A stretch of DNA of 29,170 bases from a virus. The notes under the pieces were generated by a model. The model was not told the origin of the DNA and did not search any database. It saw only the letters and a program-made list of their open reading frames with translations. A program made the position numbers and the translations under genes. Shown piece by piece: positions 12,530-27,459 of the stretch (the first letter of the stretch is position 1; each line of letters begins with the position of its first letter). The stretch is from the IMG/VR virus record IMGVR_UViG_3300037493_003062, positions 1 to 29,170 of that record; one strand, 5' to 3'.

Positions 12530-12780
12530 GCAACGAACAGACACCACGAAAACCCCGAACGCCGGAGCAGGCGGCGAGAAACCGGGAAGCCATCGCCGCC
12601 AAAGTCGCAGCAAAGGCCCGCGCAGCAGGCCGGGAACCGGGACGCAGGGGCAGGCCACCCCGGAAATGCCACGCCTGCGGGCTGGCTCAACCGAAGGGGA
12701 AGGGGGGCAAGTGCCTGGGCTGCGGGGCGGGCGCGGGCTACCCAAGCAAGAAAAAAGAAAAAAAGACTTGCGCGGAATGA
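12526..12780 (+). CDS. Basic AT-hook-like and Zn-ribbon protein, 84 aa
   Basis: The middle GREPGRRGRPPRK resembles an AT-hook (core GRP flanked by Arg), a minor-groove binding motif. It is followed by a zinc ribbon CHACGLAQ to CLGCGAG. The N-terminus is a charged helix and the C-terminus is Lys-rich (SKKKEKKTCAE). A DNA-binding role is likely. The Lys-rich codons are an A-tract that also forms the upstream part of the next promoter, whose -35 overlaps the end of this gene. Confidence 0.6.
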   Translation: MSNEQTPRKPRTPEQAARNREAIAAKVAAKARAAGREPGRRGRPPRKCHACGLAQPKGKGGKCLGCGAGAGYPSKKKEKKTCAE

Positions 12781-12795
12781 GGGATGTGGTATTCT
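12751..12795 (+). promoter_or_regulatory. Promoter TTGCGC-N16-TATTCT with A-tract
   Basis: TTGCGC at 12768-12773, a 16-base spacer that contains the stop codon of the preceding gene, and TATTCT at 12790-12795. The A-rich AAAAAAGAAAAAAAGA (12751-12766) could serve as an UP element. The leader CCGGTGTCAG resembles the leader behind the promoter at 78-105. It drives the gene at 12827. Confidence 0.7.
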
Positions 12796-12826
12796 CCGGT
12801 GTCAGCAACTCCAACCGAAATCAAAA

Positions 12827-13108
12827 ATGAAACTCACGATCACTCTCATCACCCGCAACAACGCAAAGCTTTCCCTCCTCACGGGGCTTTGCGCTCAGTA
12901 CAAGTTTCAGCGCGAGTTTATCGACGGCGCGAAAAAAGGCAAGCTAACGGAATACGCCATCGACCAACCCGGCATCTATCACTGTCGCGAAACGATCGAA
13001 ACCGCCACATGGCGCTACAGCAGCTACATCCGCGTTTCTGACGCTGGCGAAATCACGGAGATCACCGAGGCGGAAGCGACCGCAGAATTCGCCCTCGCCG
13101 CCGCATGA
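12827..13108 (+). CDS. Unknown small protein, 93 aa
   Basis: It starts with two strands (MKLTITLITRNNAKLSLLTG) and continues with mixed helices and strands (GIYHCRETIETATWRYSSYI). I know no family. It has its own promoter, an AACCGAAATCAAAA leader and no Shine-Dalgarno site, which suggests independent expression, perhaps early. It ends just before the three-way-junction element. Confidence 0.6.
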   Translation: MKLTITLITRNNAKLSLLTGLCAQYKFQREFIDGAKKGKLTEYAIDQPGIYHCRETIETATWRYSSYIRVSDAGEITEITEAEATAEFALAAA

Positions 13109-13114
13109 CACTTT

Positions 13115-13209
13115 CCCGGCCCGCCACCGTCCCCGCTCTGGCGAGTGGGGCAGCGATTAACTCTTGCAACACAAGGGGACGAAAATTAAACGCTGAGGGG
13201 CGGGCCGGG
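13115..13209 (+). ncRNA. Three-way-junction structured element, 95 nt
   Basis: P1: CCCGGCCCGCC (13115-13125) pairs perfectly with GGCGGGCCGGG (13199-13209). P2: CCCCGCTC (13131-13138) with GAGTGGGG (13143-13150), one G-U pair, loop TGGC. P3: CAGCG (13151-13155) with CGCTG (13191-13195), an A-A mismatch, TTAA with TTAA, an 8-base bulge GACGAAAA (13178-13185), then CTCTTG (13161-13166) with CAAGGG (13172-13177) and loop CAACA. In total 34 of 95 bases start a pair. It fills the gap between the gene ending at 13108 and the lysis cassette. It could be a riboswitch, small RNA or DNA cruciform. Confidence 0.6.
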
Positions 13210-13234
13210 GTAATCTTCCCAACCAAAATCACCC

Positions 13235-13426
13235 ATGAAAAAACACATTGCACTACTCGCGGCGTTTGCCGCACTCACCGCCGCCGCCCCAGCAACAATG
13301 CAAAATGCCGACTGGGGATTGTACCACGATGATCCAATCGCGGCACCAGAGCCGTCTTCGCCAATCGTCCTGCTGGCGCTGGCTGGCGCGGCTCTCATCA
13401 TGCGCCGGAACGGAGGTGCCCGGTGA
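13235..13426 (+). CDS. PEP-CTERM-like mini-protein or holin candidate, 63 aa
   Basis: An N-terminal signal-like segment (KKHIALLAAFAALTAAA, cleavage possible after APA) is followed by about 20 polar residues and then APEPSS, a hydrophobic stretch PIVLLALAGAALIM and a basic end RRNGGAR. PEP plus a membrane helix plus Arg is the PEP-CTERM sorting signal read by exosortase. The mature part between the signals is only about 20 residues. It is the first gene of the lysis cassette, so it could alternatively be a small two-helix holin. The leader has no Shine-Dalgarno site. The stop overlaps the next start by GTGA. Confidence 0.6.
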   Translation: MKKHIALLAAFAALTAAAPATMQNADWGLYHDDPIAAPEPSSPIVLLALAGAALIMRRNGGAR

Positions 13427-13596
13427 TTTCCCATCCCCCTGAAGACGACTGGACAGCCGAAGACCTTGCCAACCAGCGGCGCGTTGCCGAGGACGTCGAG
13501 CGGGCGCTGGAGCGGCATTACTCGATGATGGTCATCTGGGTCTGCGTTGCAGGCATCGCAATCGCCGCCGCAATCCATTTCCTCTCCACGCCATGA
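13423..13596 (+). CDS. Small membrane protein, 57 aa, GTG start
   Basis: GTG 13423 overlaps the previous stop and has GGAGGT at 13412-13417 as ribosome-binding site. Residues 1-34 are charged and helical (DWTAEDLANQRRVAEDVERA), and residues about 35-54 form one membrane helix (MMVIWVCVAGIAIAAAIHFL). The position between the PEP-CTERM-like gene and a lipoprotein in the lysis cassette suggests a holin or antiholin role, but the topology is unusual and no family is recognised. Confidence 0.55.
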   Translation: MISHPPEDDWTAEDLANQRRVAEDVERALERHYSMMVIWVCVAGIAIAAAIHFLSTP

Positions 13597-13829
13597 ATCC
13601 ACTACTCGCCGCAATCGGCGCAATCGCCGTCGCCATCATCCCGTCATGCACCGCACCCGGCGGGAGCTTTGAAGGCATCTACACACTACCGGGGGGAAAG
13701 GGCACGATCCGCGTGGAGGTGCCGCTCTACCGCATCCCGATTGCACGGCCAAAGCTGCCGGACCCGCCGAAGGTGCTGGAGTATGAGCCGGAGCCAGAGT
13801 CTGATCTTTTCCCGGAGGCGACGAAATGA
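13593..13829 (+). CDS. Lipoprotein, outer spanin candidate, 78 aa
   Basis: The N-terminus LLAAIGAIAVAIIPSC ends in a lipobox-like IPSC, so the mature protein would start at a lipidated Cys. The mature part is short and proline-rich (RIPIARPKLPDPPKVLEYEP, then EPESDLFPEATK), as in Rz1-type outer spanins that span the periplasm and help break the outer membrane. The place just before the endolysin fits. A convincing inner partner with N-terminal anchor and coiled coil is not next to it; a candidate is encoded at 26581. Confidence 0.6.
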   Translation: MNPLLAAIGAIAVAIIPSCTAPGGSFEGIYTLPGGKGTIRVEVPLYRIPIARPKLPDPPKVLEYEPEPESDLFPEATK

Positions 13830-13924: not shown

Positions 13925-14136
13925 CGCCAGACAACCCATTGATCGAAAACGGAAAGATGGAGCTTCTAACGTTTGAAAGCACGCTCACCAAACGGGAACA
14001 ATTTGCGATGGCGGCGATGCAGGGGCTGTGCGCGAATCCGAACTACCTGCAATTTGACGGACCGGATTTTGCCAGATTGGCAAGGATTGCCGCTGATTCA
14101 CTCGCCGCCGAACTCAAAGCCAACCCCGCCCCATGA
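13921..14136 (+). CDS. Small phage protein, 71 aa
   Basis: The sequence TLTKREQFAMAAMQGLCANP followed by a helix with FARLARIAADSLAAELKANP is a pattern I have often seen in phages as a small protein of unknown role. There is no signal or membrane segment. It is translationally coupled on both sides (ATGA overlaps), directly before the endolysin gene. Confidence 0.6.
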   Translation: MTPDNPLIENGKMELLTFESTLTKREQFAMAAMQGLCANPNYLQFDGPDFARLARIAADSLAAELKANPAP

Positions 14137-14654
14137 GTACCCTCGCCATCAGACAAGCCCTTGTCGAAATTGCCCGCCGCGACGTGGGCAAGGTGGAGGT
14201 GACGCGAAACCGTGCGCCATTCATCGCGAAATACTGGCCGGCCACCACGCTTCCCAACGGACACACCGACCGCCAACCCTACTGCGCGGCTGCGGTCTGC
14301 TACTGGGTCAGGGAATGGCTCAAGCTGCCGGAGGTCATGGCGGCGCTTAAGGTGACGCCGGCGGGGGCGGAACGGTGGCGCTGCAAGTCGCCGGCGGCAT
14401 TCGGGTGGCTGGACTGGGCCAATGCGCGAAGACTGGATGTGCTGTCAGACAGCCCGACGGAGCGACTGCGGGTGGGCGACCTCATGATTTTCGATGTGAG
14501 CCACATTGGAATTGTCAGGGACGACGATGGCGGGAACGTCTGGACGATTGAGGCCAACACCGGGAACGGCAGCGTGAGGGATGGGGACGGGTGTTTCGAG
14601 CGGAAGCGGGACCGGAGCGCGGCGAGAGCTTTCATCCGACTGATTGAGCCATGA
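14133..14654 (+). CDS. CHAP-type endolysin (peptidoglycan hydrolase), 173 aa
   Basis: This enzyme likely cuts peptidoglycan peptide bonds at the end of infection. A catalytic Cys is in RQPYCAAAVCYWV (Cys51), the His in FDVSHIGIVRD (His124) and the third residue in WTIEANTGNG (Glu140 or Asn142), the order used by NlpC/P60- and CHAP-like amidases. The start GKVEVTRNRAPFIAKYW is typical. There is no signal peptide or cell-wall-binding domain, so a holin is required for release. It follows the membrane-protein cluster, completing the lysis cassette. Confidence 0.75.
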   Translation: MSTLAIRQALVEIARRDVGKVEVTRNRAPFIAKYWPATTLPNGHTDRQPYCAAAVCYWVREWLKLPEVMAALKVTPAGAERWRCKSPAAFGWLDWANARRLDVLSDSPTERLRVGDLMIFDVSHIGIVRDDDGGNVWTIEANTGNGSVRDGDGCFERKRDRSAARAFIRLIEP

Positions 14655-15340: not shown

Positions 15341-15501
15341 TATTCCGACGAAACCGATGTAAGGCAAAGCAGCGTACACCGCGCCACTGAAGTCGAACCC
15401 AGTGCTTACCCATGCAAGATTTGCCACCGCCTTTTTCAACGTCCGCGCAGCATGTCGCGGGTTCGACCGTTGGAGGATGCGGTGGCTTCTTTTTGACCGA
15501 C
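15341..15501 (+). other. Non-coding leader between terS and HNH gene, structured
   Basis: No gene fits here. GCCACCGC (15423-15430) pairs with GCGGTGGC (15479-15486), inside it CAACG (15437-15441) with CGTTG (15468-15472) and CCGCG (15443-15447) with CGCGG (15456-15460). TTCTTTTT follows at 15487-15494, like a terminator. A competing 9-bp pairing joins GTCGAACCC (15392-15400) and GGGTTCGAC (15459-15467). This may be the leader or remnant of a mobile homing element, a terminator after terS, or both. Confidence 0.5.
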
Positions 15502-16140
15502 ATGATTGACGACAACGATCTTTTTGCCTACGCGGCGAACCAAAAACAAGTCCCGACAAAGGTGAATCCGAGTGCAGTGATTCCTCTGCCTGTGACAGTG
15601 ATTCGTGAAGCGCTGGAAATTAATGAATCCGCTCCAAGCGGGCTTATATGGAAAATGCGACCACGGCATCATTTTGCGACAGAGCGCGCGTGGAAGATAC
15701 GCAACAAAAGAGACGCCGGGAATCACGCGGGGGCTCGGTTTGAAAATAACTCAATTTACTATCGGGTCAAAATCAACGATGTGTCATACATGAGCCACAG
15801 AATTGTATTCCTTTTAGCGAACGGCATTGATCCGGTCGACAGCTATATTGACCACCGTAACCCGTCGCTTCTATTCCCTAATGTTGCGGCAAATCTTCGA
15901 TTAGCAACACACACGGAGAACATGCGGAATCGTGGACCGCAAACCTGCAACACAAGCGGAACGCCTAGCGTCCACTGGAGCAAATCCGCGCAAAAGTGGC
16001 ACGCGCAGATCAGGATCAACGGGAAAAATGCGCACCTCGGATTCTTCGCCGATAAATCCGACGCCGTTGCGGCGAGAAAAGCTGGAGAGGTCCGTTATTT
16101 CGGCGAGTTCTCGTACAGCGCATCACGCAACGTCTCGTAA
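15502..16140 (+). CDS. HNH homing endonuclease with AP2 domain, 212 aa
   Basis: Free-standing mobile endonuclease. The HNH core is visible in VSYMSHRIVFLLANGIDP, then SYIDHRNPSLLFPNVAANLR and LATHTENMRNRG. After it NTSGTPSVHWSKSAQKWHAQ and IRINGKNAHLGFFADKSDAV form an AP2 DNA-binding domain ending in YFGEFS. Such enzymes often insert beside packaging or DNA-metabolism genes. The DNA is richer in A and T than the flanks. The start is uncertain: ATG 15502 follows the hairpin and T-run, whereas ATG 15412 would add 30 Gly/Ser-rich residues coded by the hairpin. I prefer 15502. Confidence 0.75.
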   Translation: MIDDNDLFAYAANQKQVPTKVNPSAVIPLPVTVIREALEINESAPSGLIWKMRPRHHFATERAWKIRNKRDAGNHAGARFENNSIYYRVKINDVSYMSHRIVFLLANGIDPVDSYIDHRNPSLLFPNVAANLRLATHTENMRNRGPQTCNTSGTPSVHWSKSAQKWHAQIRINGKNAHLGFFADKSDAVAARKAGEVRYFGEFSYSASRNVS

Positions 16141-19282: not shown

Positions 19283-19309
19283 ACCCCGCCCTCACCGGCG
19301 GGGTTTTTT
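19283..19309 (+). terminator. Rho-independent terminator
   Basis: CCCCGCC (19284-19290) pairs with GGCGGGG (19297-19303) around CTCACC, followed by TTTTTT (19304-19309). It closes the transcription unit ending at 19276 and separates the middle genes from the late operon. Confidence 0.9.
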
Positions 19310-26580: not shown

Positions 26581-26808
26581 ATGCAGGAACTCAACACAAT
26601 CTTCTCCACACTCGGAACTCCGGGTTTACTCATCGCAAGTGTTTACTACGTCGTCCGCGAGGTGAAGACGCAGTTTGACAGCCGCGTGGGGGAGCTGAAA
26701 AATCAGTACGACGCACGGATTGCGGCAATCGAACGCCGGAGCGAAGAGTGCGAAAAGGACCGGGTGGCGCTCCGTGACCTCATCATCAAACGCACCACCA
26801 CCCCATGA
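26581..26808 (+). CDS. Membrane protein with coiled coil, holin or inner-spanin-like, 75 aa
   Basis: One N-terminal membrane helix (LGTPGLLIASVYYVVREV) is followed by a charged helix (TQFDSRVGELKNQYDARIAA, IERRSEECEKDRVALRD) predicted to be a coiled coil. This is the topology of an inner-membrane spanin or a BhlA-like holin. If a spanin, its outer partner could be the lipoprotein at 13593, although that is 13 kb away. The next gene is another tiny membrane protein, so a second lysis cluster may lie in the structural operon. Confidence 0.55.
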   Translation: MQELNTIFSTLGTPGLLIASVYYVVREVKTQFDSRVGELKNQYDARIAAIERRSEECEKDRVALRDLIIKRTTTP

Positions 26809-26921
26809 AAAACGACGAGGAGGAAAGGCTGGCGGTCGGCTGCTTCATTGCGGCCGCCGCCGCCTTCCTCCTTGCGTTTCTGGTCATCATAGAGCTTATT
26901 GTCCGCACCATCCATGGCTGA
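26805..26921 (+). CDS. Single-pass membrane mini-protein, 38 aa
   Basis: ATG 26805 overlaps the previous stop by ATGA, and the next gene's ATG 26914 overlaps its end. It has an acidic N-terminus (KNDEEERLAVGCF) and a strong membrane helix (IAAAAAFLLAFLVIIELIV). A holin or antiholin function is possible from the context; no family is known to me. Confidence 0.5.
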   Translation: MKNDEEERLAVGCFIAAAAAFLLAFLVIIELIVRTIHG

Positions 26922-27459
26922 GAACAACGAAGACTTCCTAACGCAGTGCCTGCTTACGATGAAAGGCACGATGGAAGCCGACGCCTATTTTTCGCCGACT
27001 GCGTCCGCGCCGATTCCCGTTGTCGTTGAAGTCAACCAAGACATCCAGCAGGCCATTCAGATGGTGCAGATGCGGGGCTTACTCGTCACCATCGCCATGG
27101 AGCAGGCGAGCGCCACAGGTCAGGGTGGATGCTTGACGGCATCGGTTCAATTCGTTGTGAGGGTGCTGGAGATGATCTCAGTGAACCGCAGCCCATCCGG
27201 CATTCAAGAGAACGGTTTGCGCGTGGCATCGAAGATCGCCGGCATCATCAACGGATCACCCGCAGCCAAACGGGAAGACGGCAGCACATTCGGCGGTGGC
27301 AGCTACAAATTCACAGGCATCACGCCAGCCATGATGAGCGGCCCGGACGGACTCCCCAACCCGCAAGGGCGAGCCTACCACGTCAATTTCTCGATCCCAC
27401 AGGGGACTCTCAACACATTCACCCGGCGGAATGGATCACCTCCCGCTGGAGCTCCTTAA
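26914..27459 (+). CDS. Tail terminator / completion-like protein, 181 aa
   Basis: The order of strands and helices (MEADAYFSPTASAPIPVVVE, VNQDIQQAIQMVQMRGLLVT, CLTASVQFVVRVLEMISVNR) with a Gly-rich KFTGITPAMMSGPDGLPNPQ fits phage tail-completion proteins that sit between connector and tail tube. The gene directly precedes the likely tail-tube gene, the usual place for the terminator. Motifs are not diagnostic. I took ATG 26914; an in-frame TTG at 26899 lies inside the previous gene. Confidence 0.5.
   Translation: MAENNEDFLTQCLLTMKGTMEADAYFSPTASAPIPVVVEVNQDIQQAIQMVQMRGLLVTIAMEQASATGQGGCLTASVQFVVRVLEMISVNRSPSGIQENGLRVASKIAGIINGSPAAKREDGSTFGGGSYKFTGITPAMMSGPDGLPNPQGRAYHVNFSIPQGTLNTFTRRNGSPPAGAP

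Follow-up and report, generated by a model that had tools for sequence, protein, structure and literature searches.

A compact three-way-junction element lies upstream of the lipoprotein and endolysin genes of an uncultivated phage and is shared by four related contigs. Comparison of the five sequences argues that this element is a real functional RNA whose shape has been kept across related phages. Apparently undescribed as a family, this structured RNA belongs to a general kind that is known, phage regulatory RNA. Our preferred reading, held tentatively at a probability of roughly 40%, is that it acts in cis as a structured RNA in the late (lysis/packaging) mRNA of a small phage family.

Sequence and predicted fold of the element

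The DNA analyzed here, referred to as the window, is a stretch of 29,170 bases that makes up uncultivated virus record IMGVR_UViG_3300037493_003062. Genes for a DnaB helicase and for recombination lie upstream of the element, and genes for a lipoprotein, an endolysin, terminase, and portal lie downstream (Table 1). The element occupies a 126-bp intergenic gap (13109 to 13234). The preliminary description had reported an 11-bp outer stem, an 8-bp hairpin, and a 15-pair bulged hairpin with no spacer between the second and third stems; rereading of the sequence bore out each of these, with P3 pairs arranged as 5+4+6 and P3 beginning at the base directly after P2. The predicted fold was likewise the three-way junction that had been proposed, with a minimum free energy of -55.7 kcal/mol compared to a mean of -35.2 kcal/mol (SD, 3.8) for shuffled sequences (z, -5.43), and 0 of 200 shuffles folded as well. 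The complementary strand was nearly as stable (z, -5.6), as expected of palindromic stems, which left the choice of strand to covariation. Scanning of the whole window revealed a few other 95-nt stretches with similar z scores, mostly within open reading frames (ORFs); thus, the z score alone is not decisive, and covariation decides. Elsewhere in the window, a very stable long hairpin (26803 to 26883; z, -6.7) lies inside a small ORF (26805 to 26924) that reads as a transmembrane (TM) protein.

Table 1. Positions of the RNA element, its parts, and neighboring features in the window
Feature	Position	Strand	Remarks
A-tract and promoter-like leader (TTGCGC-N16-TATTCT)	12758..12826	+	Aligned in four contigs
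Variable upstream gene, 93 aa	12827..13108	+	Nonhomologous in L004, L003/L026, and L048
Upstream-gene stop codon and 5' flank CACTTT	13106..13114	+	From homolog comparison
Whole three-way-junction RNA element	13115..13209	+	Kept in five contigs
P1 5' arm	13115..13128	+	From fold; perfect 11 bp (13115-13125/13199-13209), bulged A (13126), then 2 more bp
P2 hairpin	13131..13150	+	8 bp, UGGC loop
P3 bulged hairpin	13151..13195	+	Lower helix with 1x1 mismatch, upper helix, variable apical loop
One-sided 8-nt bulge GACGAAAA	13178..13185	+	Identical in all five contigs
P1 3' arm	13197..13209	+	From fold and homolog alignment
PEP-CTERM-motif ORF, 63 aa	13235..13426	+	Window only; absent from four relatives
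Small TM protein gene	13423..13596	+	Directly after element in L003, L004, and L026
Lipoprotein-like gene	13593..13829	+	Common to all five contigs
Endolysin gene	14133..14654	+	PHROG lysis families; common to all five contigs

Homologs share the fold and its genomic site

The homolog set comprised five contigs, all from uncultivated phages: the window, L003, L004, and L026, which are close to one another, and L048, which is distant. A search with the window terminase as the query yielded three close relatives (L002 to L004), a DNA pattern led to L026 as a further element-bearing contig, and L048 was reached through the endolysin. The L003 and L004 elements share 81% and 76% nucleotide identity, respectively, with that of the window; no copy was found by model in L002, whose sequence is a fragment. 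The elements of L003, L004, and L026 each fold into the three-way shape of the window element, and the minimum-energy fold of the L048 element has the same architecture. Model R1, built without L048, detected the element in L048, exactly at the syntenic gap, with a score of 19.6 bits (E = 0.036 over 44 kb) and gave no false match at an E value of ≤1 in 283 kb of other phage DNA. None of the four homologs lacked a stem; all three were kept. The element measures 95 to 103 nt across homologs and, in all five contigs, begins ~6 nt after a stop codon, ends 25 to 34 nt before the next start, and lies upstream of the lipoprotein and endolysin genes.

Searches beyond this set returned no further copies. 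Looser DNA patterns picked up chance matches in viral contigs, with the fold absent. The endolysin relatives L047, L049, and L050 have another gene layout and no element. In the isolate phage collection there was no nucleotide match to the element region and none to the endolysin or lipoprotein, and the terminase and portal had distant relatives only. The best isolate portal relative by E value was from Akkermansia phage Chantilly (24% identity); neither that phage nor 24 distant relatives carried the element according to model R1 or R2. Neither the exact pattern nor a terminase relative was found in bacterial and archaeal genomes (0 matches each), and these genomes thus yielded neither a prophage nor a host. 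Our guess for the host group is Verrucomicrobiota, on the basis of the portal relative in Chantilly and a fitting PEP-CTERM motif.

Covariation supports an RNA on the plus strand

In the alignment of four sequences, which was not fitted to a model, 10 of 36 pairs showed compensatory change, versus 0 to 1 in slid controls. With L048 added, the count rose to 19 of 35 pairs, versus 0 to 3 in partner-shifted controls and 7.2 on average after shuffling, in an alignment that is biased towards the structure because it was fitted to the model. Every helix adds to the signal, and P1 has 5 pairs with both sides changed once L048 is included. Covariation in related phages, which the preliminary description had proposed to look for, is thus present.

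The same alignment settled the strand. Pairs formed in 98.8% of cells on the plus strand and 89.5% on the minus strand, and 16 of 171 cells on the plus strand were G-U pairs, which are A-C mismatches on the other strand. This argues for an RNA transcribed in the same direction as the neighboring genes rather than a DNA cruciform. Among the roles listed in the preliminary description, then, a structured regulatory RNA is supported and a DNA cruciform is disfavored. Both flanks of the element show turnover of genes, and replication genes adjoin it, as would suit a structure acting at the DNA level (a single-stranded DNA hairpin, or a joint for cassette exchange, used in replication, packaging, or recombination). 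Such a joint would keep sequence and not compensated structure, however, and together with the G-U pairs this makes a DNA-level role highly improbable.

Several other sources of conservation were rejected. An overlapping ORF (13105 to 13332; ATGA overlap) does not account for it because its reading frame is not kept: the window, L003, and L026 have an open frame, in L004 a 1-nt insertion in the apical loop disrupts it, and GACGAAAA in L048 falls in a different frame. Substitutions between the window and L026 are distributed 4/4/8 over codon positions and are mostly amino acid changing. A readthrough or frameshift signal at the stop codon came into consideration because only ~6 nt separate that codon from the structure. 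The extension frame closes, however, after no more than ~15 to 30 codons in the window, L003, and L048, it fuses to the next gene in L004 only, and the L048 stop is UAA. The element also fails the defining features of a put RNA, a hammerhead, a CRISPR-like decoy, and a terminator. There were no matches in the window to Rfam 15 at gathering thresholds, and permissive searches of the window, L048, and L026 gave best scores of 12 to 19 bits versus cutoffs of 39 to 100. The element resembles the candidate RNAs from comparative genomics (PMC2864571) in being a conserved, covarying, undescribed motif of uncultivated or phage DNA and differs from them in not being among the Rfam 15 families.

An invariant bulge is the probable recognition site

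The bulge GACGAAAA is invariant in all five contigs, including L048; the UGGC loop of P2 is kept in the four close homologs and changed in L048. Outside the apical loop, unpaired positions are less variable than paired positions (Fisher P = 0.04 with five sequences and 0.08 with four). In the 5' flank, TRACACTTTCC is found in four of the five contigs, and L004 has CGATTT in place of CACTTT. In every sequence, the last bases of the flank together with the first base after it read UUUC, which is complementary to GAAA of the bulge and could pair with it as a tertiary contact. We consider the bulge the probable recognition site of the element.

A three-way junction whose unpaired bases are more conserved than its paired ones would also befit a riboswitch or self-cleaving ribozyme. 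Like a hammerhead, the element has three helices and a GGGGACGAAA string, which resembles part of the hammerhead core. Unlike a hammerhead, it has no catalytic CUGANGA in any homolog, its junction is arranged otherwise, and its candidate stem II is not conserved; a GUCCCC/GGGGAC pairing that is possible in the window is lost in the relatives. With no Rfam match, no expression platform seen, and a downstream gene that differs between phages, we regard either activity as very unlikely. In particular, no gene travels with the element, which argues against a riboswitch for one gene.

The element is kept while flanking genes change

The gene upstream of the element has no family match in the window and differs among the window, L004, L003/L026, and L048. 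Directly downstream, L048 encodes an unrelated 74-amino-acid protein. The preliminary description had placed the element just upstream of a PEP-CTERM-like lysis gene. The ORF there does match the PEP-CTERM motif (TIGR02595; 20.1 bits versus a cutoff of 16); the lysis role was not supported, as the ORF carries no lysis marker and the endolysin is the recognizable lysis gene. A link between the element and this ORF fell away as well: the ORF is missing from all four relatives and both flanking genes vary, so the element does not serve it. Small PEP-CTERM ORFs were also seen in other uncultivated phages, two in tandem on the minus strand beside the endolysin in both L047 (3394 to 3886) and L049 (3696 to 4197), and phages with PEP-CTERM proteins may be a pattern.

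Retention of the element while its neighbors are swapped points to a function that is needed whatever genes these phages carry there. Because the element tracks no neighboring gene, it behaves as an independent module, as would a noncoding RNA that is cut from the operon transcript and acts alone in trans, e.g., as a decoy for a host defense or regulatory protein. We regard this processed RNA as the main rival to a cis-acting element, albeit a rather unlikely one. Its compact closed fold and conserved bulge would suit protein binding, and phage RNAs that resemble CRISPR repeats and block Cas proteins (PMC10651486) provide a precedent. Like Racr and solitary CRISPR repeat RNAs, the element is a small structured phage RNA, and its P2 is vaguely repeat-like. 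Unlike them, it has no promoter of its own, and its similarity to CRISPR repeats is negligible (CRISPR-DR57, 13.2 bits versus a gathering cutoff of 39); solitary repeats form no such junction, and a repeat would include neither of the covarying helices P1 and P3. Neither a promoter nor a terminator of its own adjoins the element. An antisense role through the bulge was rejected: no complementary TTTTCGTC target occurs on the window's plus strand, and the DNA examined from the relatives contains a single one.

A candidate cis-acting role in the late operon

The plus-strand junction takes up the space that separates an exchangeable gene upstream from the block of lipoprotein, endolysin, and terminase genes. 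We propose that the element is transcribed as part of the operon mRNA, because the DNA upstream is unrelated coding sequence in which a conserved promoter dedicated to the element would have no space and because a terminator is lacking downstream. Since genes on both sides change and the element stays, its target would be the operon mRNA as a whole and not a single gene. In the cis-acting reading, the three helices would position the bulge for a partner that recognizes it, either RNA polymerase or an RNA-binding protein of phage or host origin; this recognition would alter how the long late mRNA is elongated or processed. Against this reading stands the small number of known sequences, five only. 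The element is a covariation-supported motif absent from Rfam, in phages with no close match to cultured phages, and its invariant bulge offers a direct handle for finding the partner. Were it to govern the late switch, it would join the few phage RNAs that regulate an operon in cis.

The exact fill of the intercistronic gap in all five contigs and the long, stable stems are also what might be expected of a site for mRNA processing, stability, or translation insulation (an RNase III-type cut at the irregular helix, protection of the 5' end of the downstream mRNA, or a barrier to ribosomes that run on from the upstream gene). However, a plain stem would need neither an invariant 8-nt bulge nor a kept three-way junction, and the downstream starts carry their own leader (AACCRAAA-type), which lies outside the element; we therefore judge this role unlikely.

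A concrete version of the cis-acting reading is put-like antitermination. In phage HK022, the distance from the start site to putR is ~270 nt, and put activity lasts over at least 10 kb (PMC9378689). Like put (putL and putR), the element would be a phage cis RNA on a long operon, and it lies ~310 nt downstream of the promoter-like leader. Unlike put, which is ~70 nt with two stem-loops, it is larger and carries an 8-nt bulge; two adjacent stem-loops were not found, and a three-way junction was present in all five sequences. The late regions of the window and L004 do contain an intrinsic terminator, which would give antitermination something to act on. In L048, neither the leader upstream of the element nor a clear terminator after it was seen, and L002 showed no terminator ahead of portal. 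Antitermination is therefore not a general need, and we offer the put-like reading as a hypothesis. By analogy, the RNA, alone or with one host protein, might reprogram transcription of the late operon as a put-like antiterminator with a different fold, acting through the GACGAAAA bulge and forming a new class, probably in Verrucomicrobiota phages; in this specific form the proposal is quite doubtful.

Transcription and translation signals in the surrounding DNA

Promoter function of the leader is putative; a promoter scan did not score it, and no such leader was seen by eye upstream of the L048 element. The leader block recurs in L003 (2400 to 2476), L004 (1840 to 1917), and L026 (minus strand, near 1045 to 1130). 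Between the conserved leader and the conserved RNA is an exchangeable gene slot, with a first gene that differs per phage lineage.

No intrinsic terminator was called at the element, and none of the homologs has a U run in the 3' flank. The intrinsic terminator noted above, which has a compensated stem, lies between the terminase region and portal (window, 19283 to 19309; L004, 6985 to 7012).

Many start codons in the window are without a Shine-Dalgarno sequence. An ACCRAA (AACCGAAA-type) motif, far above its background of 0.055 per 35 nt, occurs within 35 nt upstream of the starts at 2429, 2788, 4010, 6242, 7681, 8750, 12827, 13235, and 18181; it is possibly a translation initiation signal of the host group. 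Finally, an ORF that by eye resembles an HNH homing endonuclease (15412 to 16140) lies between the genes for the small and large terminase subunits, and a related sequence sits elsewhere in L026.
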